Assembly (NCBI GenBank): GCA_029973975.1
Contig: JARKQF010000023.1
Location: forward strand, 1 to 45,687
Direction: 5' to 3'
DNA: 45,687 bases
Source: Paludibacter sp.
GTDB lineage: Bacteria > Bacteroidota > Bacteroidia > Bacteroidales > Paludibacteraceae
Below are positions 7,985 through 44,707 of this stretch, one piece after another. Every line of letters begins with the position of its first letter. The stretch's first letter is position 1. The notes below the pieces were generated by a model that saw nothing but the letters and a program-made list of their open reading frames with translations, did not search any database and was not told the origin of the DNA. Position numbers and translations under genes: made by a program.

Positions 7985-8009
7985 TTTTTTTAGTGGTGGG
8001 CTTTCGCCC
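7985..8009 (-). promoter_or_regulatory. Hairpin plus ACCACTAAAAAAA motif before traN
   Basis: Reading the minus strand, a short hairpin (GGGC, loop GAAA, GCCC; 8009-7998) is followed at once by ACCACTAAAAAAA (7997-7985) and then TCCAATAG. The loop is GNRA-type. The same motif follows a hairpin before traE and precedes mobA, topB and the DUF1896 gene, so it is probably a leader element controlling translation or RNA processing. Confidence 0.55.
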
Positions 8010-15070: not shown

Positions 15071-15373
15071 TTAAAGGAAAAAAGAGCGCAGAATGGTAGC
15101 GGCTACAATCAGGAAGATACAAGCACCGAACCACGAAGCAGCGGTTTTGCTTGTGTCGGGATCGCCGGAACTGAACTTTCCGTACACCTTAACGCCCCCA
15201 ATTAAACCGACCACAGCACCAATCGCGTATATCAATTTTGTTCCCGGATCGAAATAACTGGTTACCATGTTAGTAGCTTCGGTAATACCGCCAACACCAT
15301 TACCCTGTGCGAATACACTTGAAACAGCAGCCAAGATAAAAGCTGCCGACATAAGAATCTTTTTCTTTGTCAT
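15071..15373 (-). CDS. traE: Conjugative transposon protein TraE (DUF4134, VirB2-like pilin)
   Basis: A 100-aa small membrane protein of the DUF4134/TraE family, thought to be the pilin-like subunit. It has an N-terminal signal helix (about 1-23), a short mature region GVGGITEATNMVTSYFDPG, and two further hydrophobic helices (LIYAIGAVVGLIGGVKVYG and WFGACIFLIVAATILRSFFL). The leader of 182 bases that separates it from traD contains a hairpin and the ACCACTAAAAAAA motif, which could raise expression of this abundant subunit. Confidence 0.85.
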   Translation of the reverse strand: MTKKKILMSAAFILAAVSSVFAQGNGVGGITEATNMVTSYFDPGTKLIYAIGAVVGLIGGVKVYGKFSSGDPDTSKTAASWFGACIFLIVAATILRSFFL

Positions 15374-15447: not shown

Positions 15448-15472
15448 TTTTTTTAGTGGTAGGTCATAAGAC
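15448..15472 (-). promoter_or_regulatory. Hairpin plus ACCACTAAAAAAA motif before traE
   Basis: On the minus strand GGTC-TTAT-GACC (15473-15462) is followed one base later by ACCACTAAAAAAA (15460-15448) and then TTCAATAG. The arrangement is almost the same as before traN, where the motif is followed by TCCAATAG. It lies 74 bases before the traE start. The 182-base traD-traE gap holds no other feature I can see. Confidence 0.55.
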
Positions 15473-15555: not shown

Positions 15556-16305
15556 CTATGCGAAATCTCTGATATTAAAGCTGTCGGGAGCCTTCTTTCC
15601 GCTTCCGGTAGTTCCGGCTTCCTTATCTTTCAATTCATAAAAAGCCGAAAGGCTCTCTGCCATGAGGTCGGAAACGATTTTCTTTGCATCAGGTTTACCT
15701 GAAACCACCTGCTCAAACATATCGGTCTGCCGCATCTCCAATAGGGTATTACCCGCTTTCTGCTTTTGTTCGAGAGTGGCTTCATCCTTACGGTTTACCG
15801 TGCGAACCATATTTCCCAAATCATCGAACTGAACTCCCGAAGCGAGTGCGGCTTGTGCCGTGCCTTCGACTTCTTCTTCCTCGTCCTCCGGCTCATCTTC
15901 GTTTTCGTCTGCTTCGTATTCGAGCGAATAATCTATTTCCATCGGCTCGTTATCTTCATCGGGCGGTGGAGTATCGGAAAACGCTTCTTCCAGTTCCTCT
16001 TGCGGCACTTCTGCTGACGATTTTACCTCGTTAGGCGGAACAAATGTATCGGGATTTTCCGTCGGATTTTCCGTTTTTGGCGAGTTGGCAGCAAGTGGCT
16101 CCGATTTGGCAGTGAGTGGCTTCGCTGCACTTAAATCGAATCGGCTTTTTCCGACAATATCCGACTTCAAACGTCCTGTTTCTTGGATTGAAGAACCTTG
16201 TCCAACAATGTTCTTTTTTCGTCTTTTACCTACTTTCAGTCGCAGAAGATAGATTCCGACGAAAAGGGCGTACAGGATAACTACGGTTATAAATATCTTT
16301 TCCAT
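15556..16305 (-). CDS. traD: Conjugal transfer protein TraD-like (DUF4122)
   Basis: A 249-aa protein anchored by an N-terminal membrane helix (FITVVILYALFVGIYLLRL), then a basic stop-transfer segment (KVGKRRKKN). A long low-complexity region is very acidic at about 125-150 (YEADENEDEPEDEEEEVEG), and a helical C-terminus ends in SFNIRDFA. It matches TraD/DUF4122 of CTnDOT-type ICEs in position and layout; its function is not established. Its coding sequence contains a full copy of the four-GCCA box and a -7-like element (see 16041-16120), so an internal promoter for traE onward is possible. The flexible Pro/Ala/Lys-rich region tolerates that DNA signal. Confidence 0.7.
   Translation of the reverse strand: MEKIFITVVILYALFVGIYLLRLKVGKRRKKNIVGQGSSIQETGRLKSDIVGKSRFDLSAAKPLTAKSEPLAANSPKTENPTENPDTFVPPNEVKSSAEVPQEELEEAFSDTPPPDEDNEPMEIDYSLEYEADENEDEPEDEEEEVEGTAQAALASGVQFDDLGNMVRTVNRKDEATLEQKQKAGNTLLEMRQTDMFEQVVSGKPDAKKIVSDLMAESLSAFYELKDKEAGTTGSGKKAPDSFNIRDFA
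16041..16120 (-). promoter_or_regulatory. Four-GCCA box, copy 1, with -7 element inside traD
   Basis: On the minus strand, GCCA half-sites start at 16120, 16110, 16099 and 16089, spaced 10, 11 and 10 bases. Thirty-seven bases after the box comes TACATTTG (16048-16041), a perfect TAnnTTTG. Copies 2-4 have the same internal spacing and lie 38 bases from their -7-like elements. This copy is inside the traD reading frame and would direct transcription toward traE and the pilus genes. The binding protein is unknown. Confidence 0.6.
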
Positions 16306-17998: not shown

Positions 17999-18038
17999 TA
18001 CTTCTAAATTTTAATTATTAAACATTGTTTGTATCTCC

Positions 18039-18133
18039 GTTCGGCTCTCCGTTCGGCTCTCCGTTTAGCCATTCAGCCGTTTAGCTGTTTGTCCGTCCCT
18101 CTGTTTAGCTGTTGGAACGTTTAGCTGTTTAGC
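18039..18133 (-). repeat. GTTYRGC repeat cluster in the tra operon leader
   Basis: Seven copies of GTTCGGC or GTTTAGC (GCTAAAC on the transcribed minus strand) start at 18039, 18051, 18063, 18079, 18103, 18119 and 18127. The spacings are 12, 12, 16, 24, 16 and 8, all multiples of four. The first two are parts of a tandem 12-mer, GTTCGGCTCTCC. More degenerate GTTTG and CAGCC versions continue to about 18245. The cluster lies between the predicted tra promoter and traA, in the 5' untranslated RNA. It may bind a protein or RNA regulator, or may be a slippage-prone array. Confidence 0.6.
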
Positions 18134-18257
18134 CAACCGTTTGTTTGTTCAGCCATTTATTTGGCTCTATCTCCATACAGCCGACTGTATGTTTTTATAT
18201 CCGTACAGCTATTCGTTGGGCTGTTCGTTTGTTTGTGCATACAGCCGTTTTTCTCTG

Positions 18258-18338
18258 CAAATGAAAGCCTAAAATTTCTCCTGCACACTACTTTTTCACG
18301 AGGTGGCAGCAAGTGGCTTCGATTTGGCAGCAAGTGGC
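18258..18338 (-). promoter_or_regulatory. Four-GCCA box, copy 2, and candidate tra operon promoter
   Basis: On the minus strand GCCA half-sites run from 18338 to 18304 with the same spacing as the other copies; each 14-base half is GCCACTTGCTGCCA. Thirty-eight bases beyond the box is TTCATTTG (18265-18258), one mismatch from TAnnTTTG. This would start transcription about 250 bases before traA, giving the repeat-rich leader. The box differs from copy 1 at only three of 35 positions. Confidence 0.6.
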
Positions 18339-18374: not shown

Positions 18375-18382
18375 TAACTTTG
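18375..18382 (+). promoter_or_regulatory. Candidate -7 element of the mobA promoter
   Basis: TAACTTTG fits TAnnTTTG on the plus strand and lies 36 bases from the other side of GCCA box copy 2. It is preceded by TAGCCTA, and the ten bases TAGCCTATAA recur at the coupling-ATPase promoter (24648-24661 region). No clear TTTG sits at the -33 position. The transcript would carry the candidate oriT as its leader and start mobA. Confidence 0.45.
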
Positions 18383-18634: not shown

Positions 18635-18646
18635 TACCACTAAAAA
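18635..18646 (+). promoter_or_regulatory. ACCACTAAAAAA motif before mobA
   Basis: This copy lies 10 bases before the mobA start codon, where a ribosome-binding region would be. Copies at 31763 and 34021 have the same 9-11 base distance from their genes. Bacteroidota often lack a Shine-Dalgarno sequence and use A-rich leaders, so the motif may be a translation enhancer. Confidence 0.45.
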
Positions 18647-18656
18647 ATCCGACAGA

Positions 18657-21040: not shown

Positions 21041-22726
21041 TTAATTATTTTTTAATTTGTTCTCCCAAGCTGTTTTATTATCTTCGTTTGGAACTGCAAT
21101 TACCAAGATTTTGCGAGGTCTTGTCATTCCAACATATGCAATTCTTAATTCCTCACTTGCTGAGATATGGGTGTTTTTGTTTAATAGTGTTTTATAAGCA
21201 CTGCCAATCCCTTTGGTTCTTAATATCATGAGTGCAGCATCAAAAGTTTCTCCTTTAACGCTATGAATTGTTCCATACCGATATTCTTTTTCTATGATTT
21301 GTTTATCTCCATTCAAAAACAATTGTGAAAAAGAACTCCCAGAGCTGTCTTTGTGAATATGCAGTTCTATCCCAGTATTGTTCTCTTTTAGAACAGCATT
21401 CGTCTTCACAACCCATTCTCCAATAGAAATGTCCGTTTTAGGGAGCATATTCATAAATGCGTACACTTGTGATTTGAGTGCAACAAAACCCATCTTAGAA
21501 ATAGCAGTATCTATGTCATTTTCGGAACAAAAGGACAAGTCTAACAAAGTTCTTAGCAAAACTTTTTCTATTATTCTAAACCCTTCCTTGAAGCGATTAT
21601 TATCGTATAAAAATTTGCCAAGTGCAAATTCCCTTGTATGATTATCTGTCCAGCTTTTTGCTCTGAAGTCTATCTCCGGAATTTCTAAAATTTCATTTAT
21701 AATACTTTTGCTACGGTAAATTATAGCTGTAGATTCTTTGCTTACAACAATACCTTGTTGCTGACATTCTGCAATAAACTCTGAGACAATTTGAGGTAGA
21801 TTCTTGTCATAGACAATAACTTTAGGCTGGAATTCAAATTGAGCGACTTCCTCATTAACAGAAACAGAAGCGTTTTCCAAAGAGGATATTCCGAAAGTAA
21901 AACTGCAAATATTTTGAGAACTCCTACGATTCTCATTTAAAATCATGGAATTTTCCCATTCCGTATATTTTTGAGTAAGTAATTCTGGTTTAGCATCATT
22001 CCATTCGAAAATAGCCTGATCAGGATCACCTACGAGCATTACTTCCGACAGCCCATTTTCTATAAGTAAATCAATAATCCTCATTTGAATGTCAGAAGTG
22101 TCCTGTGCTTCATCTACTATCAAATATGGAAATCTTATGGCAATAGCTTTAGCAATTTGCGGATATGCTTCAAGAATCTTCATGGCGAAAAAATTAGCAT
22201 CGTTTTGTGTAGCATAGCCCGCTTTATTAAACCGTTTTTTTGCTCCTGTAATATGCTTGTTTTGTTGCCAATCTGCATTCATTTTTTTAGGTTGAACTGC
22301 ATACATAGAGCCATCTATTGAGTAACTGATATTATCGAATAAGGAACTACTAAAATCCTTTCCGCTCCAAACACCATGAGGCTCCCCGACCAAAGTAGGA
22401 CGACCATTGCACTTTAAGATTAAATGCCCAAAGGGAAGGAATATATATTTATTTATAAAACTATCAATCGTTCCAAGAAAGTGAGGATAAGATATTTTTG
22501 TTAAGCTAAACTTTTCACCACATTTCTTTTCTATCTCCTGCCATGCTACATTTGTGAATGAAAGAACTGCAATCCCTTCATGTCGATTTTTCCATTCATG
22601 AACAAGTCTTGCCAATCTTGCCCCGACACAAAAGGTCTTACCACTGCCCGGACATGCCCTTACAACAAATTTACCTGATTTGTTGAAGACTATTTCACGC
22701 TGACTATCGGATAGGGTTCGAAACAT
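21041..22726 (-). CDS. gajB: Gabija helicase GajB (UvrD-like)
   Basis: A 561-aa superfamily 1A helicase. Motif I is CPGSGKTF (about residues 25-32), motif II is VDEAQDTSD (about 200), motif III is GDPDQAIFEW, a later motif is YGTIHSVKGETFDAAL, and motif VI is AYVGMTRPRK near the C-terminus. It starts five bases after the OLD-family gene, the gajA-gajB arrangement of Gabija anti-phage systems, in which GajB pairs with the GajA nuclease. It is somewhat longer than the roughly 500-aa GajB I recall. A free-standing UvrD-like helicase is less likely given the pairing. Confidence 0.8.
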   Translation of the reverse strand: MFRTLSDSQREIVFNKSGKFVVRACPGSGKTFCVGARLARLVHEWKNRHEGIAVLSFTNVAWQEIEKKCGEKFSLTKISYPHFLGTIDSFINKYIFLPFGHLILKCNGRPTLVGEPHGVWSGKDFSSSLFDNISYSIDGSMYAVQPKKMNADWQQNKHITGAKKRFNKAGYATQNDANFFAMKILEAYPQIAKAIAIRFPYLIVDEAQDTSDIQMRIIDLLIENGLSEVMLVGDPDQAIFEWNDAKPELLTQKYTEWENSMILNENRRSSQNICSFTFGISSLENASVSVNEEVAQFEFQPKVIVYDKNLPQIVSEFIAECQQQGIVVSKESTAIIYRSKSIINEILEIPEIDFRAKSWTDNHTREFALGKFLYDNNRFKEGFRIIEKVLLRTLLDLSFCSENDIDTAISKMGFVALKSQVYAFMNMLPKTDISIGEWVVKTNAVLKENNTGIELHIHKDSSGSSFSQLFLNGDKQIIEKEYRYGTIHSVKGETFDAALMILRTKGIGSAYKTLLNKNTHISASEELRIAYVGMTRPRKILVIAVPNEDNKTAWENKLKNN

Positions 22727-22731
22727 TTCAA

Positions 22732-24504
22732 CTATTCTCCTTTTGTTACAAATTTTATAGCGTTTTGTATATAGGTCGGTACAGAGAATGCGTTTCTTGC
22801 AGCTTCGTCTAATGCTAATTTCATTGCAAGCCTATGTGCTAATTCTGATTTTGCTTTATTAGCAACAACCTTTTCCAAAAAGTTTGCAGCATATATTTTC
22901 ACGTCTTCATCTTCAACAATTCTATTTGCAGCTACAGGGTGCATCTCACGGAAAATATCTATTAGAATATCTTTGTTTCCCGCTACAAATAATTCAAATT
23001 CAAATGTTCGTTCTGCTAAAAAAACTTTCAAATTTTTCCGTTCAAGTTCTTTTGCATTTTTGGCTCTTGAATCAATTTCATCCGTTTCCTCAGCTCTGTC
23101 ATCGTCAGTTATAAGAGAGCACCTTGTTTTAAGGTTTTTGTTCTCATCCTCATTATTAAACATGTTTGCAAAATGAGAAAAAGCAACACCGTTTATATTT
23201 ACTAATTCTATTCCTACATTTTCTAAATCAAATTCCCCATCTTCTCCCATTATTTTGCTAAATATAGGCAAGAGTAGAGACTCAGAAATGCCTTCAACCA
23301 ATATGACACCATTAGAAAAGAATAATTGGGATTTTGTTACATCTAAAAATTTACGTAAATAGTTACGATTATCTTCTGTCAAACCAGATTTATCAAGAGA
23401 TAATGCTGTAATTTTTTCATCCTGATTTTGTAGAACAACTACCGATTTCAAATCAGCCTTAGCTGTGATTGTAGGAGAGTGAGAAGATATGAAAATTTGG
23501 GAACCTTGCTCTGTTTCTAACTTATCTAAATATTTGAAGAATAAATTTTGGAGTTGTGGGTGTAGATGTGCTTCCGGCTCTTCTATAAGTAAAGCTACAT
23601 AGCATTCTCTATACAGTTCTTTTCTCTGTTTTAAGTCTCCTAAAACAGTGGCAGTATAAATAAGATTATTATATCCTAATCCATTTTGATAAAGTTCAAA
23701 ATGTTTTTGCTTTGAAGCATCGCCTTCAAGTAGTTCTTCGGGATATATTGGCATTTGAATTTTCAAATTATCGACCAAACGATTAAAATCGAAAGGAAGA
23801 AATAGAATATCTACCTGTTGTTGTTTACTTGAAAAGCTTGTTTCTTTCAAATGTTCATTTATTTTTCCCTTCCCTTTACCTATATGCTCAGTCCAGTCAT
23901 TATCACTATCGACAGCTTCTCTAACTTTTTTAGCAATTTCTTTTTTTCTCTCCTTATCGGTTGTTGAATCAGGGTCTATTTGAATATTCGTGTATAATTG
24001 TCCTAGTCGATTCCCTCTAATAGGACGTAAATGATTTTCAGCATCTCTTAGCGCATCTAAATGGACATGGTATAAAAGAAACAAAACCTCTGGAGCTATA
24101 ACTTGTCCCTCATTTGAACCACCCCAAACTTTATACCTAATTCTATCATTTTCGTCAAGATAGTAACGAAAGTGTAATTGTAAGTCTTGTGCCCCATCTT
24201 CTTGAACGCACAACAAGTCGTTAAACCAACCAGCTTCAGCAGGGACTTCAATCTTAAAATGTAAATGAAATTCTATATCTGTAGAAATATCATCTATTAC
24301 AGATTTATTTATGTGAAAATCTGATGATGATATATAAATATCTCTTTTCTGATTACCATAACTCAAACAAACACGTAATGCGTCAATAATTGCCGTTTTG
24401 CAGGAATTATTCTCTCCAATTAGGACATTTAGTCCTTTGTTGAAATGCAGGGTTAATTCAGCAATTCCTCTATAATTCTTGATAATGAATTTTTCTATAT
24501 ACAT
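22732..24504 (-). CDS. gajA: Gabija nuclease GajA (OLD-family ATPase-TOPRIM)
   Basis: A 590-aa OLD-family protein. The N-terminal ABC ATPase begins with a Walker A region at residues 30-37, read as GENNSCKT: the usual second Gly is Cys35 (codon TGC). The ATPase continues to ALLIEEPEAHLHPQLQ (Walker B) and IFISSHSPTI (H-loop). The TOPRIM nuclease domain follows, with VILVEGISE near residue 400 and LITDDDRAEE near 460. GajA cuts DNA when nucleotides are depleted during phage infection. The length fits the family. Its own promoter is at 24531-24558. Base composition is clearly more A/T-rich than that of mobB or the coupling ATPase, indicating acquisition as cargo. Confidence 0.8.
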   Translation of the reverse strand: MYIEKFIIKNYRGIAELTLHFNKGLNVLIGENNSCKTAIIDALRVCLSYGNQKRDIYISSSDFHINKSVIDDISTDIEFHLHFKIEVPAEAGWFNDLLCVQEDGAQDLQLHFRYYLDENDRIRYKVWGGSNEGQVIAPEVLFLLYHVHLDALRDAENHLRPIRGNRLGQLYTNIQIDPDSTTDKERKKEIAKKVREAVDSDNDWTEHIGKGKGKINEHLKETSFSSKQQQVDILFLPFDFNRLVDNLKIQMPIYPEELLEGDASKQKHFELYQNGLGYNNLIYTATVLGDLKQRKELYRECYVALLIEEPEAHLHPQLQNLFFKYLDKLETEQGSQIFISSHSPTITAKADLKSVVVLQNQDEKITALSLDKSGLTEDNRNYLRKFLDVTKSQLFFSNGVILVEGISESLLLPIFSKIMGEDGEFDLENVGIELVNINGVAFSHFANMFNNEDENKNLKTRCSLITDDDRAEETDEIDSRAKNAKELERKNLKVFLAERTFEFELFVAGNKDILIDIFREMHPVAANRIVEDEDVKIYAANFLEKVVANKAKSELAHRLAMKLALDEAARNAFSVPTYIQNAIKFVTKGE

Positions 24505-24580: not shown

Positions 24581-24661
24581 GCCACATACTGCCAAATCAA
24601 AGCCACATACTGCCAGCTACATCAAAACAGCAAGAAACCTCAGTTGTAGCCTATAATTTCG
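24581..24661 (+). promoter_or_regulatory. Four-GCCA box, copy 3, and coupling-ATPase promoter
   Basis: GCCACATACTGCCA occurs at 24581-24594 and again at 24602-24615, a 21-base period that puts GCCA at 24581, 24591, 24602 and 24612. After 38 bases comes TAATTTCG (24654-24661), one mismatch from TAnnTTTG, in a context TAGCCTATAA shared with the mobA promoter. There is no TTTG at -33, which fits activator dependence. It precedes the gene at 24690. Confidence 0.65.
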
Positions 24662-24689: not shown

Positions 24690-26702
24690 ATGCAACAAGA
24701 AGATGATTTAAGAGGACTTGCCAAAGTGATGGAATTTATGCGGGCAATCAGCATATTGTTCGTAGTGATGAATATATATTGGTTTTGTTACTATGTCTTT
24801 CGGGAATGGGGAATCAATATTTCAGTAGTGGATAAAATACTGCTAAACTTTGACCGAACAGCCGGATTATTCGGCAATATTCTGTACACAAAATTATTCG
24901 CAGTCGTTTTTCTTGCTCTTTCCTGTCTGGGAACGAAAGGTGTTAAAGAGGAAAAAATAACTTGGACGAAAATCTGTGTTTTTCTGTCAATCGGTTTTAT
25001 CCTGTTCTTTATGAACTGGTGGATACTTGACCTGCCATTACCGGCATCGGCAACAGCAAGTTTCTATATCTTCACAATGACAATAGGCTACTTGTGTTTG
25101 CTGGTTGGCGGGTTATGGATGAGCCGATTACTCAAAAATAATCTGATGGACGATGTTTTCAATACTGATAACGAATCCTTTATGCAAGAGACCCGATTAT
25201 TACAAAGTGAATATTCAGTAAATCTACCTACTAAATTTTGGTATAAGAAAAAAGAGTGGCGGGGTTGGATAAACGTCGTAAATCCGTTTCGTGCTTCCAT
25301 CGTGTTGGGAACTCCCGGTTCGGGCAAGTCATACGCTGTTGTTAATCAGTATATGAAACAGCAGATAGAGAAGGGATTTTCGATGTATGTGTACGACTTT
25401 AAGTTTCCGGACTTGTCGATGATTGCTTACAACCATTTATTAAACAATCAATCAGGATACAAGAAAGTGCCGACTTTCTATGTGATAAACTTCGATGACC
25501 CTTCTCGTTCGCACCGTTGTAATCCAATTAATCCGTCCTTTATGGACGATATTTCGGATGCTTACGAAAGTGCCTATACCATAATGCTTAACCTAAATAA
25601 AACGTGGGTGCAGAAGCAAGGCGACTTCTTTGTGGAATCTCCGATTATCCTGTTTGCATCTATAATATGGTACTTGCGAATTTATCAGGATGGGAAGTAT
25701 TGTACCTTCCCGCACGCAATTGAATTCCTGAACAAACGCTATGAAGACATTTTCCCAATTCTAACTTCTTATCCCGAACTTGAAAATTATCTAAGTCCAT
25801 TTATGGATGCTTGGTTGGGTGGTGCAGCCGACCAGTTGATGGGGCAAATAGCAAGTGCCAAAATTCCGTTATCACGTATGATTAGTCCGCAGTTATATTG
25901 GGTAATGAGTGGAGATGAATTTACGTTGGACATCAACAATCCTGATGACCCAAAAGTGTTGGTTGTAGGTAATAATCCTGACCGACAAAATATTTATGGT
26001 GCAGCACTCGGTTTGTATAATAGCCGTATTGTGAAACTCATTAACAAAAAGGGACAATTGAAAAGTTCAGTTGTCATTGACGAGTTACCGACAATCTATT
26101 TTAAAGGTTTGGACAACCTGATAGCTACCGCCCGAAGCAACAAAGTAGCTGTACTTTTGGGCTTTCAGGATTTTTCCCAATTAACAAGGGATTACGGAGA
26201 CAAGGAAGCGAAGGTAGTGATGAACACGGTCGGCAATATTTTCTCCGGTCAGGTAGTAGGCGAAACAGCCAAAACGCTTTCCGACAGGTTCGGGAAAGTC
26301 TTACAGAAACGGCAGTCTATGACTATTAATCGTAATGATAAATCGACCTCTATCAGTACCCAAATGGATAGCCTGATACCACCGTCCAAAATCTCCAATC
26401 TTACACAGGGTATGTTTGTCGGAGCTATTGCGGATAATTTTGATGAACGTATCGAGCAGAAGATTTTCCATTGCGAAATTGTGGTGGACAACGCGAAGGT
26501 TGCTGCTGAAACAAAGGCATATCAACCCATTCCTGTCATTACCAATTTTACAGACGAAAATGGAGTGGATAAAATGAAAGAGCAAATACAACTCAACTAT
26601 AACCGTATCAAGGATGAAACGAAACAGATTGTTGCCGAAGAGTTGGAACGCATTCGTAATGATGAGGACTTGCGGCATTTGTTGCCGAAGGAAGAAGAAT
26701 AG
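24690..26702 (+). CDS. mobC: Type IV coupling ATPase (VirD4/TraG family, MobC)
   Basis: A 670-aa coupling protein that brings the relaxase-DNA complex to the conjugation channel. Four N-terminal hydrophobic segments (between about 15 and 160) anchor it in the inner membrane. Walker A is GTPGSGKSYAVV (about 207-218) and Walker B is SSVVIDELPTIYF (about 455). The helical segment DNLIATARSNKVAV and the C-terminal region are typical of VirD4 proteins. In Bacteroides ICEs this gene is called mobC. It is separated from mobB by the Gabija cassette but keeps its own GCCA-box promoter, and ends at a strong terminator. Confidence 0.85.
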   Translation: MQQEDDLRGLAKVMEFMRAISILFVVMNIYWFCYYVFREWGINISVVDKILLNFDRTAGLFGNILYTKLFAVVFLALSCLGTKGVKEEKITWTKICVFLSIGFILFFMNWWILDLPLPASATASFYIFTMTIGYLCLLVGGLWMSRLLKNNLMDDVFNTDNESFMQETRLLQSEYSVNLPTKFWYKKKEWRGWINVVNPFRASIVLGTPGSGKSYAVVNQYMKQQIEKGFSMYVYDFKFPDLSMIAYNHLLNNQSGYKKVPTFYVINFDDPSRSHRCNPINPSFMDDISDAYESAYTIMLNLNKTWVQKQGDFFVESPIILFASIIWYLRIYQDGKYCTFPHAIEFLNKRYEDIFPILTSYPELENYLSPFMDAWLGGAADQLMGQIASAKIPLSRMISPQLYWVMSGDEFTLDINNPDDPKVLVVGNNPDRQNIYGAALGLYNSRIVKLINKKGQLKSSVVIDELPTIYFKGLDNLIATARSNKVAVLLGFQDFSQLTRDYGDKEAKVVMNTVGNIFSGQVVGETAKTLSDRFGKVLQKRQSMTINRNDKSTSISTQMDSLIPPSKISNLTQGMFVGAIADNFDERIEQKIFHCEIVVDNAKVAAETKAYQPIPVITNFTDENGVDKMKEQIQLNYNRIKDETKQIVAEELERIRNDEDLRHLLPKEEE

Positions 26703-26748: not shown

Positions 26749-28650
26749 TTATGCCAATTTTAGACTTTTATTGACTTTTGTGTACTTTTCTCCAACAGTA
26801 TATTCTATAATATCAAGTTCCTCTGCTATCATGGATGTTGCCATAATAATTTGGAATTTTTTATCTTTGAATTCTTCTGAATTTGCCAAACGGACAATGT
26901 TTCGCTGAAAATTCATACTGCGTGCTTCAACCATTCCTTTATCCTCAATATTGTCGCATAATATAAATTTAGGATATCTAAAATAGTCTAATTCCAATGA
27001 AGCAAAAAAGATTGCAAAACGAACACAGTTTTTTAATAATACCATGGAACTCGCAGAAAACCGATTACGTCCATCAAGATAAAATGAATTTTTACCAAAA
27101 TCTATTTGTACAGATTGTCCATTTTGGAATTTCTCTTCATATGCCCCATCTCCCTTCAATAGTTCTAAAGCATAATACTGTATTCTCGAAAATGCAGTAG
27201 AACTCTTTTTCCGTTGAAGATTCGCCAAACGTTCCGTTTCTTCTTTAAGTCTATCTATTTGAGCTTTTAAGGAATATTGATTGTTTTTATAATCTTCATA
27301 AGATTCTATCAACTGTATTTGTTTTCCTAAGAAATCAATTTCTGCATTTAGTTTTCCTTTTTGTTCCAATAATTGATCAAATTTTATTTCAAGACTTGTT
27401 CTGGATTGATTTATATAAACATCGTAATCAGCCTGTGCTTTCACTAAAGAACGAGAAATTTCTTTTAGAGAAGCATCCAACTCTTCAACTTTATTTTCTT
27501 TAGTCTTCAATATTTTTTGCGATTCTTTTATTTGCATTTCGATCTCAAGCTGCATACGTAAAAGTTTGGATTTTCCCGGATTTTCTTTTACTTCTTGTTT
27601 GCAAAGTTTGCAATGATTCTCTCCTACGTTATCATCAAGCTTTTCCAAACATACTGGGCAATATTGAAGAGGAATAGTTCCTAAAACATCTCGTGAGTTT
27701 AAAGATTCCTTAATTGCGACTAATTTAGATTGAAGAACTTCAATAAAATCAGAACTATCAACTAATGACATTTTGTTCTTATCAATAAATTTTAATGTGG
27801 TATCGTACTCGTTTTTAATCCGAATAAGATTCTCTCTTAATTTTTTTATATCATTTTTTACATCGTTTTTCTTGACTGATTCAGCAATTGTGTCTGGCGC
27901 TTTTAAAGTGTTTAATACCCGTTTTAATTGTTCCTGTTTTTCATCTAAAGAAGATTTTATTTTTGCTTTGTCAAATTCAAAAGGGGAATTGTCAAAAACC
28001 TCTTCGATTGCATCTATTTGTTTCTTTATTTCTGATAATTCTCGTTCTTTCTGTTTCAATACCATTTGTCGCCTTAACAAGTCATCATCGTACGTTCCAA
28101 GCAACAAATTTCCAATTGCAATTCTAATTAGAGGGGAATCGAAATCTTCATTTCTCATTAAACTATCCAAGGCGCTTAATTGGTCAATATAGATTAATCT
28201 TAAAATCTGATTGACTGTTATTGATTCTTGATTATCTGTTGAGACTTCAGGAAATTCTAATGCTTTAAATATTATTTGGCTAAAACTTTCTGCGTTTGAA
28301 GACTTTTTATAAGGATATGTTTGCCATCCTTCATAATTTGATTTCAATCCATCTTCTAATTTACCAAAGAAGATAGACATTGGTCTCATTTGCTTTGCTT
28401 CAATTTCCCTCTTGAAAGTAAGAATAACACTATTTAATTCGACTTCTGCATATACATAATTACAGCTCGCAGCTTCCGGTAGCCAATTTGTAAATTCACC
28501 TCCGAGAGCAAAGAAAATGAAATTTGAAATAGTTGATTTTCCTGAACTATTATCCCCTCTTATTATATTAATTCCTTCATGAAATTCTTCATAATAAGCG
28601 GTATCACTTTCTTTTGTTACCAGAAGTTTATTTAGTTTCAAAAAACTCAT
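26749..28650 (-). CDS. SMC/Rad50-like ATPase of an ABC-3C-like defence system
   Basis: A 633-aa ATPase with a split nucleotide-binding domain. Walker A is GDNSSGKST (about residues 32-40). Two coiled-coil arms flank a zinc site with CPVC (about 330-333) and CKLC (about 349-352), reminiscent of Rad50 zinc hooks. The second half has FILCDNIEDKGM in the Walker B position, where Asn stands in place of the usual Glu after Asp. The layout fits the DUF3732-like ATPases of ABC-three-component conflict systems and is also akin to the SMC proteins of Lamassu. It is the last gene of the operon and overlaps the previous one by 23 bases. A role in sensing or cutting foreign DNA is inferred from the family. 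Confidence 0.7.
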   Translation of the reverse strand: MSFLKLNKLLVTKESDTAYYEEFHEGINIIRGDNSSGKSTISNFIFFALGGEFTNWLPEAASCNYVYAEVELNSVILTFKREIEAKQMRPMSIFFGKLEDGLKSNYEGWQTYPYKKSSNAESFSQIIFKALEFPEVSTDNQESITVNQILRLIYIDQLSALDSLMRNEDFDSPLIRIAIGNLLLGTYDDDLLRRQMVLKQKERELSEIKKQIDAIEEVFDNSPFEFDKAKIKSSLDEKQEQLKRVLNTLKAPDTIAESVKKNDVKNDIKKLRENLIRIKNEYDTTLKFIDKNKMSLVDSSDFIEVLQSKLVAIKESLNSRDVLGTIPLQYCPVCLEKLDDNVGENHCKLCKQEVKENPGKSKLLRMQLEIEMQIKESQKILKTKENKVEELDASLKEISRSLVKAQADYDVYINQSRTSLEIKFDQLLEQKGKLNAEIDFLGKQIQLIESYEDYKNNQYSLKAQIDRLKEETERLANLQRKKSSTAFSRIQYYALELLKGDGAYEEKFQNGQSVQIDFGKNSFYLDGRNRFSASSMVLLKNCVRFAIFFASLELDYFRYPKFILCDNIEDKGMVEARSMNFQRNIVRLANSEEFKDKKFQIIMATSMIAEELDIIEYTVGEKYTKVNKSLKLA

Positions 28651-29119
28651 ATCGATACTCCATTAATTTTGTTCTTTTCTTCAACTCAAGGATAGATATA
28701 TTTTCAAAAAAAGCTACAACCAGCTCCATATAAGCATTTTCAGTGTCAGTTAAATCAAACAATAGATTGTCAGGTATGGAATTATCTGTTAGCTTTAGTA
28801 TATCATCAAACAATAAATCATTGTCAATAAAACCAAAGGCTGCTAATGCCCTATATGCGGTTTCTTGTACACTTTCTAATTGGGAAAAAGTATTTCTTAT
28901 ATCGTAGACTTTGTTATATCTATTTGCTTGACATATTTTTTTATATGTAGAAAATTGTCCCGGCAATGTGATATTTCCTGTTTCACAAGGAAATAGAAAA
29001 TAATAATCGTAGATTTTTATTCTATCTTTTTCATGAGATTTTTCACCCAAACATCTAAGAATTTTTAGAGTTCGGGTTAAACAGTGGTATGTATCATATA
29101 CAGGATGATATACTATCAT
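28628..29119 (-). CDS. ABC-3C-like middle component
   Basis: A 163-aa mainly helical protein starting MIVYHPVYDTYHCLTRTLKI. From position and general pattern it resembles the 'middle component' that connects ATPase and effector in ABC-three-component systems; YHPVYDxYHC recalls one subfamily (MC5-like, low confidence). The ATPase gene starts inside its 3' end, so the two are probably translated together. No catalytic residues or membrane helices were seen. Its start is four bases after the upstream stop. Confidence 0.6.
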   Translation of the reverse strand: MIVYHPVYDTYHCLTRTLKILRCLGEKSHEKDRIKIYDYYFLFPCETGNITLPGQFSTYKKICQANRYNKVYDIRNTFSQLESVQETAYRALAAFGFIDNDLLFDDILKLTDNSIPDNLLFDLTDTENAYMELVVAFFENISILELKKRTKLMEYRYEFFETK

Positions 29120-29123
29120 ATAG

Positions 29124-29708
29124 TTATTTCCATCTTATGTGACAATTTCCGGTTAAAAAATAAATCATTGCAGTAATGTCATCATCATATAAATCAAGAA
29201 CATTATTTTCTCCTAACATATCTTGAACGGGTTGAATAACTTTTTCGATAATCATTTCTCGAATAACATCCTTGGAAACGCCGTCATTTACAGCACCTTT
29301 TATATGCAAATTGAAAAGAACATAAATCCTTGCTAATAAGAAGGCATAAATCTTTTGGGTTGCTTTGGATAAATTGTTCTCTGTGATTTTTTTATAAAAA
29401 TACTCTTTCATTTGTTGAGCCCAATCTATATCATTTTCAAAACCTGCCTCTGTGAGTTTTGGTTCAAGCCCAACAAAACCATCAATAGTTGCGGTATAGT
29501 GCTGTATTTTATCTATGAACTCCCTAAACTCAATATTTCCATTTTCGAGTTCTTGTTCAAACTCTTCTACCAATTTTAAATATTGAGTATAAGGTTTAGG
29601 GAAACCATTGTAATTATTAACAGTCATATCTCCCCCTGCTTGATATTGAGAAGAGTTATTCCCGGCAGTTTGCCCTAATGTTGGTATTGTTTCGTTGATA
29701 TTACTCAT
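29124..29708 (-). CDS. ABC-3C-like protein with QTAGxNSSQYQ motif and C-terminal domain
   Basis: A 194-aa protein. Residues 12-33 hold a motif, QTAGNNSSQYQAGGDMTV, that also ends the small membrane protein encoded upstream. Residues about 40-194 are helical and close with AMIYFLTGNCHIRW, which I recall as the C-terminal domain found on effectors of ABC-three-component systems. No nuclease or other effector domain is fused to it here, although in that class an effector domain is usually present. The start overlaps the upstream stop in ATGA, so the two are coupled. It may recruit the membrane protein to the ATPase complex. Confidence 0.6.
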   Translation of the reverse strand: MSNINETIPTLGQTAGNNSSQYQAGGDMTVNNYNGFPKPYTQYLKLVEEFEQELENGNIEFREFIDKIQHYTATIDGFVGLEPKLTEAGFENDIDWAQQMKEYFYKKITENNLSKATQKIYAFLLARIYVLFNLHIKGAVNDGVSKDVIREMIIEKVIQPVQDMLGENNVLDLYDDDITAMIYFLTGNCHIRWK

Positions 29709-30123: not shown

Positions 30124-30204
30124 GCCACACACTGTCAAACCAACGCCACACACTGCCACCTGCTTCAAAAACCGCTGTCAGCCTGTTGATTAGAACTACT
30201 TTCG
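30124..30204 (+). promoter_or_regulatory. Four-GCCA box, copy 4, and DUF3945-topB promoter
   Basis: Half-sites GCCA, GTCA, GCCA and GCCA start at 30124, 30134, 30145 and 30155 with the same 10-11-10 spacing. After exactly 38 bases comes TACTTTCG (30197-30204). The bases after the box, CCTGCTTCAAAAA, resemble those after copy 3 (GCTACATCAAAAC). It precedes the gene at 30246. The 262-base gap 29984-30245 holds only this element and the divergent cassette promoter. Confidence 0.65.
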
Positions 30205-31762: not shown

Positions 31763-31776
31763 ACCACTAAAAAAAA
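31763..31776 (+). promoter_or_regulatory. ACCACTAAAAAAAA motif before topB
   Basis: This copy lies 11 bases before the topB start codon, in the ribosome-binding position, as at mobA and the DUF1896 gene. No hairpin precedes it here. Confidence 0.45.
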
Positions 31777-33954: not shown

Positions 33955-33994
33955 TTTTTTTAGTGGTGGCACTGGGGAGGGATACCCCGGTGCC
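33955..33994 (+). terminator. Terminator after topB, with inverted ACCACTAAAAAAA copy
   Basis: GGCACTGGGG (33968-33977) pairs with CCCCGGTGCC (33985-33994, one wobble) and TTTTG follows, giving a terminator. Directly before it lies TTTTTTTAGTGGT (33955-33967), the reverse of the ACCACTAAAAAAA motif. A forward copy at 34021 follows, so the hairpin sits inside a pair of inverted motifs. Confidence 0.6.
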
Positions 33995-34020: not shown

Positions 34021-34032
34021 ACCACTAAAAAA
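34021..34032 (+). promoter_or_regulatory. ACCACTAAAAAA motif before the DUF1896 gene
   Basis: This copy lies nine bases before the ATG at 34042. The following TTCATCAG is similar to the bases after the traE copy (TTCAATAG), so conservation extends beyond the A-run. Confidence 0.45.
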
Positions 34033-40219: not shown

Positions 40220-40249
40220 TAATCTCACATAGGTTTTTATTGAAATTCT

Positions 40250-40286
40250 ATTTTGCCACAAATTTATCGTATATTTGTGGCAAAAT
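40250..40286 (+). promoter_or_regulatory. Operator-promoter of the AbiE pair
   Basis: A perfect 14-bp inverted repeat, ATTTTGCCACAAAT (40250-40263) and ATTTGTGGCAAAAT (40273-40286), is separated by nine bases. TATATTTG (40270-40277), a TAnnTTTG element, lies within it. AbiEi antitoxins are known to repress their own operon by binding inverted repeats in the promoter, so this is probably the autoregulatory site. The antitoxin ATG follows at 40294. Confidence 0.65.
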
Positions 40287-40293
40287 TATTTGT

Positions 40294-40896
40294 ATGCAAA
40301 GTGCTTTCAATCAAATTAAGGATAAAATCCTTTCTTCCGAGAGGGGAGAATTGTTCTTCCCTGACGATTTCTCTTCTTTCGGCTCGTCGGATGCTGTCCG
40401 CTCCGCCTTGGTGCGTTTGTGCCAGTCGGAAGTCATTATCCGTGTAGCACAAGGAATTTATTATTATCCTAAAATAGATACCAAATGGGGAAGTGGTATT
40501 ATTCCGCCAAGTATAGAAGAAGTCGCTAACGGTATTGCCAAACGGGACAGAGTGCGGATTATGCCGACAGGAGCATACGTTCTCAATATGCTTGGGTTAT
40601 CGACACAAGTTCCTGCAAATGTGGTTTTTGTTACCGACGGCTCTCCCCGTCGTGTTTCCATTGGCAAAGGCAAAGGTATTTTATTCAAACATACTTCCGA
40701 GATGCGTAATTTTGCCTATCAATCACAAATGATGATGTTGATAGTTACCGCTATGCGTGAAATAGGCGAAGGTAATATTACTTCTGAACAGCTTGAAATC
40801 ATTAAAACGCACTTGAAAAAAGTAAGTCCGGAACAATTTCAAAACGATATACAGTTGGCACCGATATGGGTGCGTAAAACCCTTCAAAACGTATGA
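40294..40896 (+). CDS. abiEi: AbiEi-like antitoxin (DUF6088)
   Basis: A 200-aa protein of the AbiEi/DUF6088 type, the antitoxin of a type IV toxin-antitoxin pair. The N-terminal half is a winged-helix-like domain (SAVRSALVRLCQSEVIIRVAQG-type, about 30-60, then GIYYYPK). The rest is the AbiEi C-terminal region (VANGIAKRDRVRIMPTGAYV, VFVTDGSPRRV). I chose the ATG at 40294, eight bases after the operator; the open frame extends upstream to 40216 but includes the promoter. It overlaps abiEii in ATGA, which helps keep expression balanced. It follows the big helicase gene by 74 bases. Confidence 0.75.
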   Translation: MQSAFNQIKDKILSSERGELFFPDDFSSFGSSDAVRSALVRLCQSEVIIRVAQGIYYYPKIDTKWGSGIIPPSIEEVANGIAKRDRVRIMPTGAYVLNMLGLSTQVPANVVFVTDGSPRRVSIGKGKGILFKHTSEMRNFAYQSQMMMLIVTAMREIGEGNITSEQLEIIKTHLKKVSPEQFQNDIQLAPIWVRKTLQNV

Positions 40897-42025: not shown

Positions 42026-42340
42026 TCACGGTTTTTCCGGTGGTTTTCTGCCATTCCTTTTTTTATTAAAATTTTCTCTGATGAACGTATGTACATCACT
42101 TTCTTTATAATAGGTCTTTTGGTAAACCGTCTGAAAAGGCAGTTCGCCTGTACTGCGATAGCGTTGTAGCGTTCGCTTACTTATATGGAGTAGCTGACAC
42201 AAATCCTGATTGTCAAGCAATAATTCTCCGTCCAACATATTCCTTTGTTTACTCATTTTATCAAGGGTTTTATCCTGTTTATCGAAGCGGTACATGATTC
42301 GTTCCATCCATGCTTCAAAGTCTTCTCTGCTGATATACAT
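42026..42340 (-). CDS. Excisionase-like HTH protein
   Basis: A 104-aa DNA-binding protein. After a charged helix (EAWMERIMYRFDKQDK) it has a MerR/HTH_17-type helix-turn-helix: LLDNQDLCQLLHISKRTLQR, then YRSTGELPFQ and KTYYKESDVHTFI. Such domains occur in excisionases and transposon regulators of Bacteroides. It is the last gene of a minus-strand operon with the primase-helicase, 14 bases before it. It may regulate excision or transfer; there is no direct evidence that it binds the GCCA boxes. Confidence 0.7.
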   Translation of the reverse strand: MYISREDFEAWMERIMYRFDKQDKTLDKMSKQRNMLDGELLLDNQDLCQLLHISKRTLQRYRSTGELPFQTVYQKTYYKESDVHTFIRENFNKKRNGRKPPEKP

Positions 42341-42354
42341 AATTGTTCAAGTGT

Positions 42355-44394
42355 TTAGAAGATATGCCCTATCATAAAGTAATTCTGATTGGACGGATCT
42401 TTTATGATTATTTCTTTTTCTCGCATATATTTAATGTAGCTTTTGGCGGTACGTTCCTTTACATCCATTGTTTGCTGGATGCGGTCGCACAGGTCGATAT
42501 AAGTCAAGTGCTTTTGTACGCCAAATATCTCACGGGCAACTGTCGCCAACTCTTTTTCTTTCCGTTTTTCCTTTTCCTCTCGTGGCTTTTCACCGATATA
42601 AATGTGCATTCCCAGTTCCTTATCCCAAGAGAACTGCATCAAAGGAACGTCGAGCGGGCTGCCGTCCCGTACTTTGAGTGCCTTAACCACCGATACCGAC
42701 GGCTCGCTGTCGAGTTCGATACTCACGATTGCAGCCGCTTTGCGTTGCAGTTCGGAACCTAAATGTCCCCGTAACTTCAAACCATTCGGCACATAATGAA
42801 GCACACTAACAATGCAGGTGCGGTATATCCCTGCGAGTCGGTACAGCTCATCCACAATACGGATACTTTCCGCTTCGTCATTGGCAGATAATACCAAATC
42901 CGCAATACCGTCGATAACGACCAGGCGAATGCCCTCATATTCGTAATGATATTTGTCCATACTCTGAACAATAGCTTGCAAGCGTTCCTTTCGGGACATT
43001 CCCGTAAGGGAGAATGCCCGCAGTTCTTCGGGTTTTTCGTTCAGTTTGGCACGTTTCAAAAGATTGGATACATTCTTGAATAGCTGAACTTCAGATTGTT
43101 CTGTATCGTAGAGCAGGACAGCTTTCCCGTCGGAATTATCACGAACATTTATGCCCAGAGTGTCAATATTGCGGCTGTCTTTGATTATCGAACCTGCAAT
43201 CAGGGCGGCAACATAGTTGCTTTTTCCGGTTCCTTCGCCGCCTGTAATACAAAGGATATTCCCCTGTGTTCCGAGTGGCACATCTCCGGCGGAAATAACT
43301 TCTTCGGCTTTTGCCGGAGGGTTATTGAAATCAATTTCACAGGATTTTAGCATGGTCATTGTTTCGCTATATAAATTATCAAGAAAGTCGATGAATAACT
43401 GGCGGAATTCTTTTCGGCTATTTCCTTTAATGAAATAGTCGGTAATGTCTTTCTCTTTTTTTTCTCCTGAAAGTGGTAACAGAAGTCGTTTTACACCATA
43501 TTCGGCTAATGCTTTTTCGTGTTTGATTGCACTATCTATTCCTGTTTTATCGGCATCATAGAGCAATACGATATGCTTAAATCGGAATGTGAGTTTATAG
43601 ATTATTCCTGTCGGAATAGTGGACGTTTCGCTGTTGAAGCAAATCGCATGAAAGCCGTGAGCGGCAAGAGTCATCACATCCTTTTCTCCCCCCGTGATGA
43701 ACAGCGTATCTCCTTTGGCAGGTAATTGTTCCAGACCGAAACAGTAGCTTTCCCCGATATTACCTCCATATAAAAAACGAATTTCCGAAAATGGACGGTA
43801 GATTTTTACATATCGTTTACCTATGTACCCAAATAGCGGCTCATTCTCCGATGAAGTGTAAGAGAACGATTTTCCGTCCTTATTTTCGCTTCTAAACTCT
43901 TTCAGGGATACGGCTCTGTATAGTTTCAGTATTTCGGGAGTGATACCTGACCTTAACCAAAAATCCAGTTCCTTTTGATTGAATTTTTGTTGTATGATAT
44001 TGTAAGGCTTGCTTTTGGACGGTTCGGGAGCGGTTAGACTACCTTTTTGCGGATTTGATTGTGGAACTGGGGTATAATCGGAATTATCCAATCCCAATAT
44101 CATCTCCCTGTTTATGATTTTCAGAATTTCAACGAAGTCTGCTCCATTGTTGCAATTCAAACCTTTCAACTTTCCAACGAAGAAAAAGCAATCGCCGCTA
44201 TACTCATCGTTTCCAAAGTCTTTTATCTTGTAAACACTATTTCGACGGTCGAAATATACATTACAAGAAGCTTTACGATCTTCGTACAAAGGATTGAGGA
44301 AATTTCGTCCCGTTTTCCATTGCACAGGAATATAGTGTTTGAATACATCCAAACCGCTATTTGTCCGTCTTAACAGTTCGTCTTTGTTGAGCAT
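42355..44394 (-). CDS. TOPRIM primase with RepA-like helicase domain
   Basis: A 679-aa protein. An N-terminal CHC2-like region (YIPVQWKTGRNFLNPLYEDR, then SCNVYFD) is followed by a TOPRIM domain with FITGGEKDVMTLAAHGF (about 230) and LLYDADKTG (about 280). The C-terminal half is a RecA-fold helicase with ITGGEGTGKSNYVAALIA (about 380) and RLVVIDGIADLVLSA near 510. The C-terminus looks like a winged helix. It probably primes and unwinds DNA for ICE replication after transfer. The start overlaps the HTH gene upstream by 38 bases. Confidence 0.75.
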   Translation of the reverse strand: MLNKDELLRRTNSGLDVFKHYIPVQWKTGRNFLNPLYEDRKASCNVYFDRRNSVYKIKDFGNDEYSGDCFFFVGKLKGLNCNNGADFVEILKIINREMILGLDNSDYTPVPQSNPQKGSLTAPEPSKSKPYNIIQQKFNQKELDFWLRSGITPEILKLYRAVSLKEFRSENKDGKSFSYTSSENEPLFGYIGKRYVKIYRPFSEIRFLYGGNIGESYCFGLEQLPAKGDTLFITGGEKDVMTLAAHGFHAICFNSETSTIPTGIIYKLTFRFKHIVLLYDADKTGIDSAIKHEKALAEYGVKRLLLPLSGEKKEKDITDYFIKGNSRKEFRQLFIDFLDNLYSETMTMLKSCEIDFNNPPAKAEEVISAGDVPLGTQGNILCITGGEGTGKSNYVAALIAGSIIKDSRNIDTLGINVRDNSDGKAVLLYDTEQSEVQLFKNVSNLLKRAKLNEKPEELRAFSLTGMSRKERLQAIVQSMDKYHYEYEGIRLVVIDGIADLVLSANDEAESIRIVDELYRLAGIYRTCIVSVLHYVPNGLKLRGHLGSELQRKAAAIVSIELDSEPSVSVVKALKVRDGSPLDVPLMQFSWDKELGMHIYIGEKPREEKEKRKEKELATVAREIFGVQKHLTYIDLCDRIQQTMDVKERTAKSYIKYMREKEIIIKDPSNQNYFMIGHIF

Positions 44395-44707
44395 GGAATT
44401 GATAATTGTTTATAAGGTCATTCATACATTCGTCGGTACTGCGGATTCTCCTTTCTGTGAGCATTCGCTTAATTTCCGCAATGGTGTAATATGATTTGCC
44501 GGATATGATAGAATAGGAAATTAGCCGCTTGGTGCGTAAACGTTGAAGTGTACGTTCGCTAATTTTGAGAAAGGTGCATACTTCATAACTATCAACCCAC
44601 ATTTCGTCCGGGTTGGCAGCATCATCGTCCTGATGATCGATGACGAACTTGGCTATCGCATTAATTTTAGATACCAACGTGAGTTCGGGATAACATATTA
44701 TCCCCAA
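44357..44707 (-). CDS. HTH protein with 5' end replaced by the insertion sequence
   Basis: A frame of about 116 codons with a helix-turn-helix (SYEVCTFLKISERTLQRLRT, then YYTIAEIKRML), a paralogue of the HTH protein at 42026. The first codons (MGIICY, from a TTG at 44707) fall in the insertion sequence; ELTLVSKINAIAKFVIDHQ looks native. The usual start is therefore missing, and expression would need the TTG, an internal ATG (about residue 36, before the HTH) or an IS-borne start. It overlaps the primase gene. I treat it as probably 5'-truncated but possibly functional. Confidence 0.55.
   Translation of the reverse strand: MGIICYPELTLVSKINAIAKFVIDHQDDDAANPDEMWVDSYEVCTFLKISERTLQRLRTKRLISYSIISGKSYYTIAEIKRMLTERRIRSTDECMNDLINNYQFHAQQRRTVKTDK
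44687..44704. other. Palindrome at the insertion-sequence junction
   Basis: GGGATAA (44687-44693), CATA, TTATCCC (44698-44704) is a perfect 7-bp inverted repeat spanning the transposase stop codon and the border with the HTH gene. It may be part of the element's end or a chance product of the junction. Confidence 0.35.

Follow-up and report, generated by a model that had tools for sequence, protein, structure and literature searches.

Conjugative elements of the CTnDOT type move genes, resistance genes among them, between Bacteroidota of the gut and the environment, and the timing of their excision and the building of their transfer channel are only partly known. The excisionases of CTnDOT act as transcription activators of the transfer genes (PMC9956884), and the title of a work cited in PMC9956884 has Xis2d binding the mob-tra intergenic region; RteR promotes discoordinate expression of the CTnDOT tra operon (PMC7366714). 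Primary-sigma promoters of Bacteroidota have the -7 consensus TAnnTTTG (PMC7366714), and the -33 motif is unidentified in Flavobacterium johnsoniae (PMC7366714). Here we compare with these systems a locus in which a promoter of this type probably lies within the coding sequence of traD.

The window analyzed here, 45,687 nucleotides in length, is a 45.7-kb Bacteroidota contig from a genome that is 85.7% complete, and it holds a large part of an integrative and conjugative element resembling CTnDOT. Genes traA (ParA type) to traO are on the minus strand, and the mobA and mobB genes on the plus; the contig further encodes mobC, a DUF3945 protein together with topoisomerase III, and HTH proteins, such that the window meets the criterion for a CTnDOT-type element of a Tra operon together with MobA/MobB/MobC and topoisomerase III. 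There is no named model for traB to traE, and these genes are what we take them to be from the usual gene order. The genes that matter most below are:

15071..15373, minus strand: traE (DUF4134), the first gene downstream of traD
15556..16305, minus strand: traD, 249 aa, host of the putative internal promoter (DUF4122 match below the Pfam cut-off)
24690..26702, plus strand: mobC, coupling protein (NCBIfam NF041326)

We note that the window also carries a Gabija-type defence pair between mobB and mobC (21041-24504, minus strand; PADLOC: GajA E 1.6e-159, GajB E 6.2e-186), an ABC-three-component type cluster (AAA/LmuB-like protein, MC5, CTD9) adjoining mobC (26749-29708, minus strand), and an AbiEi/AbiEii toxin-antitoxin pair (40216-41894, plus strand).

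The putative internal promoter of traD has the following parts:

16086..16120, minus strand: putative activator box, four GCCA half-sites read on the minus strand
16041..16048, minus strand: perfect -7 element TACATTTG (plus-strand letters CAAATGTA), 37 nt downstream of the box
16028..16036, minus strand: predicted transcription start, inferred from the position of the -7 and unmeasured

The half-sites of the box are arranged head-to-tail with spacings of 10, 11, and 10 bp, which places all four on one side of the helix, and TACATTTG meets the sigma-ABfr -7 consensus TAnnTTTG. An earlier sequence-only reading of the window had placed the box 16086-16120 wholly within traD, 37 bases from its -7 and different at three of 35 bases from a second copy in the tra-mob region (18304-18338), and all of these claims are confirmed. 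A search for TTGGCAGCAAGTGGCTTCG with up to three mismatches gives four matches in the window, all of them within the traD and tra-mob boxes, against an expectation of 0.00 from 100 shuffles. The 14-mer around the -7 alone, also with up to three mismatches, is as frequent as in shuffled sequence (four matches, 5.03 expected); it is the pairing of box and -7 at a fixed distance that exceeds chance, and not the -7 alone.

The box is not restricted to traD and the tra-mob region, but is also found at two further promoters in the window:

18304..18338, minus strand: box in the interval separating the tra operon from the mob operon, at the traA (tra operon) promoter
18258..18265, minus strand: -7-like TTCATTTG of the traA promoter, 38 nt from the box
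18375..18382, plus strand: TAACTTTG, which may be the -7 of a divergent promoter for mob, 36 nt beyond the opposite edge of the box (function inferred)
24581..24615, plus strand: box upstream of mobC
24654..24661, plus strand: -7-like TAATTTCG before mobC, 38 nt from the box
30124..30158, plus strand: box preceding the operon of the DUF3945 gene and topoisomerase III
30197..30204, plus strand: -7-like TACTTTCG of the DUF3945/topoisomerase promoter, 38 nt from the box

The mobC and DUF3945/topoisomerase boxes have the same orientation relative to their genes as the box in traD, and the distance from box to -7 is 38 nt at all three of these intergenic promoters and 37 nt in traD. The sequence-only reading overlooked the boxes before mobC (24581-24615) and before the DUF3945/topoisomerase operon (30124-30158); it also missed the four-half-site array, the presence of the array at these two promoters and its link to the integrase end described below, as well as a second related element in the window's own genome, with one box in its traD and one in its tra-mob region.

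To describe such sites we used a composite model of three half-sites and a -7 at 37 or 38 nt, with a score limit of 1.5 or less. There are exactly four composite matches in the window (traD, traA, mobC, and DUF3945/topoisomerase), and 20 first-order Markov copies of it yield zero; likewise, 100 kb around the element of a complete relative, Seramator thermalis, contains four matches, with none in 20 Markov copies. The traD site has the best composite score in both the window and the Seramator region. A fifth boxed promoter in Seramator, before a DUF1896 gene, scores above the 1.5 limit. In whole-genome searches with three mismatches the box pattern is present in 2 to 7 copies in each of nine genomes (the tenth locus, L040, is excluded from this count) and its reversed control in none. 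A pattern search within the family was positive in three of 101 genomes, including the window's own. An initial scan with a two-unit box missed the three-half-site forms of loci L044-L046 and found the L038 group only at four mismatches; it was replaced by the half-site model, whose half penalty for GACA was set after the integrase-end arrays had been seen.

A perfect box was also observed in another element that carries a separate pair of HTH genes (L110, 14166-14199, minus strand), where the boxed operon resembles the DUF3945/topoisomerase operon judging from the starts of its proteins. The stretch between the traA promoter and traA (window 18020-18260) is a long low-complexity leader with short CCGTTTAGC-like repeats, and the second element of the same genome has a leader of AATCAATCG-like repeats (L005, 8770-9040), unlike the window's leader in sequence but alike in character. 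A further short sequence, ACCACTAAAAAA, occurs six times in the window with zero mismatches (7986-7997, 15449-15460, and 33956-33967 on the minus strand; 18636-18647, 31763-31774, and 34021-34032 on the plus strand), the expectation being 0.63 even with one mismatch permitted. Five of the six copies are just upstream of genes, namely DUF4138/traN, traE, mobA, topoisomerase, and DUF1896, and ACCACTAAAAAA could possibly be a leader element shared by transfer genes.

The site within traD is broadly conserved. Scanning the genome contigs for traD gave 36 loci, two of which (L035 and L039) cover the site only in part and were left out. All 23 close loci that cover the site (L014-L034, L036, and L037) have the box in traD, and 10 of 11 more distant loci (L038, L040-L047, and L049) have a three-half-site form followed by the -7 at 37 nt. 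The remaining one, L048, has a traD frame of 37% identity lacking the N-terminal residues, and the box is absent from it. We note that an identical traD gene is present in eight genomes named as Parabacteroides, Dysgonomonas, and Bacteroides (L025-L031 and L037), which suggests recent transfer between genera, and that a metagenome bin named as Eubacteriales contains two contigs with elements of this Bacteroidota kind (L014 and L034), most likely through a binning error.

We scored 33 distinct traD genes, including eight further distant homologues; L036 (a truncated traD in which the site is present), L035, L039, and L048 are outside this set. They fall into eight groups, with 23-43% of residues shared between representatives; over such a range the retention of a promoter within a coding sequence is unusual. 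In every one of the 33 genes the best composite of the whole gene is at the homologous place and at offset 37 (both 37 and 38 were allowed), with scores of 0 to 2.5. The -7 is a perfect TAnnTTTG in 28 of the 33 and fits TAnnTT(T/C)G in 31; it is weakened to TAATTTAG in L054 and L056 and reads TAGYTTCG in L044-L046, while the arrays of L052 and L057 are weak. None of the 33 traD genes has a -33 TTTG. When each gene was randomly recoded with its own codon usage, the observed score was reached in 0 to 14 of 1,500 trials across the 33 genes.

For a later set of candidates an alignment of ten traD proteins served as the query, because the DUF4122 model PF13498 matched only three of 393 genomes. This set was also scored (31 loci, reduced to 26 by removal of five duplicates, with rows lacking a locus, already scored, or representing second gene pieces excluded). 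The site is present at a score of 2.5 or less in 16 of these 26, always at offset 37 though 35 to 39 were allowed, and recoding these 16 attained their scores in 0 to 18 of 400 trials. Several genes of this group are near ones already scored; for ten, the closest scored relative is at most 62% identical. The site is absent from the other ten candidates, of which eight have poor alignments (scores below 150) and could be something other than traD; L154 and L158 align reasonably yet have neither a traD site nor a traA site.

A box in a protein-coding segment could in principle reflect the protein and not the DNA, and the box does lie in a low-complexity Pro/Ala-rich linker that might encode the motif by chance. 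Synonymous variation speaks to this directly. Among 15 distinct close traD genes, the rate of differing codons at positions with the same residue is 0.113 in the box (codons 62-73), compared with 0.354 in codons 1-61 and 0.296 in codons 90-249; it is 0.152 in the codons of the -7 (85-89), and the stretch between box and -7 (codons 74-84) is also quiet, at 0.155. Amino-acid differences show the reverse, at 0.293 in the box versus 0.209 and 0.160 elsewhere. The lowest 12-codon windows of traD start at codons 66 and 65, and the next lowest at 129 and 131, so the box is not the sole quiet stretch of the gene. This comparison used the 104 of 105 gene pairs with less than 97% identity and was not corrected for codon bias; the recoding test uses each gene's own codon usage and therefore allows for it.

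The -7 letters TACATTTG, TATATTTG, or TACTTTTG are kept while the encoded residues alternate between D and N, T and I, and V and A, and at the center of the box the residues change between Lys-Ser and Ile-Pro with the DNA code retained. The explanation of the box as a protein feature can therefore be almost entirely excluded: the same DNA is present in three non-coding promoters, residues vary while bases stay, and random recoding loses the box. The sequence-only reading had stated that free drift of synonymous sites in the box would refute it; that check has been run, and the sites do not drift freely.

The boxes of traD and traA also vary together. Within the close group the center of the traD box changes from AAATC to ATACC in the same elements whose traA box changes (L020 has ATATC in traD), and traD and traA boxes differ by an average of 3.50 positions within the same element and 5.21 between different elements, a result reached by two of 20,000 permutations. 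This comparison used 14 of the 15 genes (L024, near-identical to L023, was excluded), and kinship of the elements contributes to the result. Among distant elements, three GACA half-sites at traA pair with three or two in traD in L183, L184, L186, and L187, and the order GACA-GCCA-GCAA-GCCA is found at both sites in four relatives (L135, L192, L197, and L198) and is off by one letter in L136; in L138, L140, L185, L190, and L194 half-site agreement is only partial. We regard the joint movement of half-site letters across distant elements as a tendency, without a formal test.

In 24 distant regions, scanned on the gene strand only and with A or T accepted as the second base of the -7, both sites are present in 17, the traD site alone in three (L189, with no traA in view, L193, and L141), the traA site alone in two (L137 and L142, whose traD arrays exceed the limit of that scan), and neither in two (L195 and L196). 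No ParA motif was found in L190, counted among the 17, and its upstream site was assigned to traA by position. That the box and -7 are there, how they are laid out, and that they are conserved and covary is shown by direct comparison.

An internal promoter in the sense orientation is the best reading of the traD site, because the box is synonymously quiet, the -7 and its 37-nt offset are kept, and bases stay where residues change. Support for this part of the sequence-only reading comes from sequence comparison, there being no transcript data; its further claim of extra transcription of traE and later genes is inferred only, in the absence of RNA data. In array data for CTn4-bt, induction is larger for traE-traI than for traA (PMC1976400 Table 1); we have not counted this as evidence, because PMC1976400 Table 2 includes no TraD for CTn4-bt and array folds are not comparable between genes.

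Two other uses of the site deserve consideration, although the alternatives discussed in this report are not all mutually exclusive. The first is that the promoter mainly yields a shortened TraD from an internal start codon, and not additional mRNA for traE and later genes. An in-frame ATG is present within the 60 codons that follow the predicted transcription start in 24 of the 33 traD genes, and most of the close group have this ATG in common, in the motif NEPM(D/E/N)ID; but nine of the 33, including the whole L038 group of six genes, have no such ATG and yet retain the promoter, and the ATG of L005 is elsewhere. We consider this explanation improbable. The second is that the box is an auxiliary operator and not a promoter, bound by the same protein and either looping to the traA promoter or holding an excision or relaxation complex. 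The two arrays are about 2.2 kb apart on the same strand in the window, and excisionases as a class bend DNA and bind cooperatively. A looping site, however, needs no -7, and the -7 is kept at exactly 37 nt despite residue changes (28 of 33, or 31 of 33 with T or C at the seventh position), which makes this a doubtful alternative. An internal sense promoter remains the reading we prefer.

The window encodes two candidates for the protein that would bind the box:

42026..42340, minus strand: HTH_17 excisionase-like protein, 104 aa, candidate box binder (Pfam HTH_17 PF12728, above the cut-off)
44357..44707, minus strand: second HTH protein, Xis2c-like by position, 116-aa frame (E 6e-4), adjoining a transposase

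The 104-aa protein does not meet the cut-off of the excisionase family TIGR01764 (21.4 bits versus the curated 28.8). A structure model of the HTH protein was too poor for use (mean pLDDT 53), and a PDB sequence search with it found no related solved structure, only one chance match. The first residues of the second HTH protein differ from those of the Seramator protein, and its N-terminus has probably been replaced. A homologue of the HTH_17 protein is present in all ten box genomes searched, on the contig that bears the box; nine are 82-100% and one is 63% identical to the Seramator protein. In three other places, two of which are almost the same, a weak box with three mismatches precedes HTH_17 genes by about 200 nt.

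A related array marks the integrase end. In the 100 kb of Seramator there are six four-half-site arrays with a score of 2 or less, five corresponding to the promoters and one lying 63 nt upstream of the integrase start and about 200 nt from a tRNA-Asp gene. Such an array, in which GCCA and GACA are mixed, is present at a score of 2 or less in eight of 12 integrase loci of box genomes, seven at 63 nt and one (L129, score 1) at the corresponding place; it is weak in L130 and L134 (score 3) and L133 (score 4), and L131 lacks it. Of the 12 integrases, only six have a box within 50 kb on their own contig: five of these with the array (L123, L126, L127, L129, and L132) and one in which it is weak (L130). 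No integrase was found on the window contig; L130, the weak case, is the integrase of the window's own genome, on contig C91.

The excisionase-like HTH_17 protein is favored as the binder because of the integrase-end array, the presence of HTH_17 in all box genomes, and the weak boxes before HTH_17 genes. In the absence of binding data we cannot distinguish which of the two HTH proteins would bind the box. A different activator also remains possible, such that the promoter is real and is controlled by RteC or another element-encoded regulator. RteC controls excision and transfer genes of CTnDOT (PMC1976400), and RteC-family genes are present in eight of ten box genomes and beside the HTH genes in several box elements. 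CTnDOT-type elements have rteC with two HTH_17 genes, and the window has two HTH genes, the second with an altered start; its genome gives no RteC match, but the contig ends there. Against RteC are the related array at the integrase end, the weak boxes upstream of HTH_17 genes elsewhere, and the lack of a match in two genomes, G501 and the window's own (G000), though the latter is only 85.7% complete and the window contig stops close to the HTH genes. Our preference for the HTH_17 protein over RteC is retained in what follows.

In the mechanism we propose, the traD box and TACATTTG would form a sense internal promoter of the Bacteroidota primary-sigma type, with a -7 TAnnTTTG and without a -33 TTTG. 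An activator would bind head-to-tail, on one face of the DNA, to the four (in some lineages three) GCCA/GACA half-sites spaced by about one helical turn, and would replace the missing -33 contact and recruit polymerase to the -7. Transcription is predicted to run from approximately 16028-16036 through the remainder of traD into traE and beyond, adding transcripts of traE and later genes to those that read through from traA. The same activator would drive the traA, mobC, and topoisomerase promoters from a near-equal distance (38 versus 37 nt). The most probable candidate for this activator is the small excisionase-like HTH_17 protein that the element itself encodes. By binding the related array next to the integrase as well, at the end of the element, it would switch on excision together with transfer.

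We judge this full explanation, an excisionase-activated promoter within traD that feeds traE and later genes, to be likely, with a probability of roughly 0.72, although no transcript or binding data are available; the bare claim of an internal promoter is the more probable of the two. What lowers our confidence in the full explanation is that just six integrases are on the same contig as a box and that the array in the window's own genome is weak. The start of transcription at the predicted position, the identity of the excisionase as binder, and the extra mRNA output for traE and later genes are all inferred. The reading nonetheless makes precise predictions, of a start site, a distance, and a shared activator, and supplies a sequence signature by which other elements may be searched for the activator and its regulon. 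It is also relevant to the discoordinate tra expression reported for CTnDOT, in that unequal tra dosage would, by inference, have an internal promoter among its causes. A bolder reading, on which we would not lay odds in either direction, is that the phased GCCA/GACA array read by an excisionase is a general control language of many Bacteroidota conjugative elements, marking the integrase end and firing promoters at a fixed distance. One such promoter would have entered traD at so early a stage that the protein's linker was thereafter shaped by the DNA, and would split the tra operon into separately dosed parts, traA to traD and traE onward; if true, this would provide a DNA-level reason for the discoordinate expression described for CTnDOT.

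The closest described systems are the CTnDOT/ERL-type conjugative transposons of Bacteroides, which share with this element TraA-TraO, the divergent MobA-MobB, MobC, topoisomerase III, a mob-tra control site (here the box at 18304-18338), and, in relatives, HTH_17 genes beside rteC. They differ in that the known site is confined to the mob-tra intergenic region in the literature examined. Compared with Bacteroidota primary-sigma promoters (-7 TAnnTTTG, -33 TTTG), the traD site has a similar -7, but it has no -33, for which the array would stand in, and is located within a coding sequence. Excisionases of the phage lambda and Tn916 type bind head-to-tail at helical-turn spacing, and the resemblance extends to a small helix-turn-helix protein, direct half-sites 10-11 bp apart, and arrays at element ends; here, in contrast, promoters carry arrays as well, with a fixed spacing to the -7, and one array is inside a gene. 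RdfS of Mesorhizobium ICEs is similarly an excisionase that also stimulates transcription (PMC5882170), although it belongs to another element family and the abstract of PMC5882170 mentions no site in a coding sequence. A limited literature search, which included few subscription papers, found neither a promoter inside traD nor an array common to mobC, topoisomerase, and the integrase end. Internal promoters and gene-activating excisionases are each already known; what is new, as far as the literature searched shows, is a site of this kind conserved within a coding sequence across distant elements.
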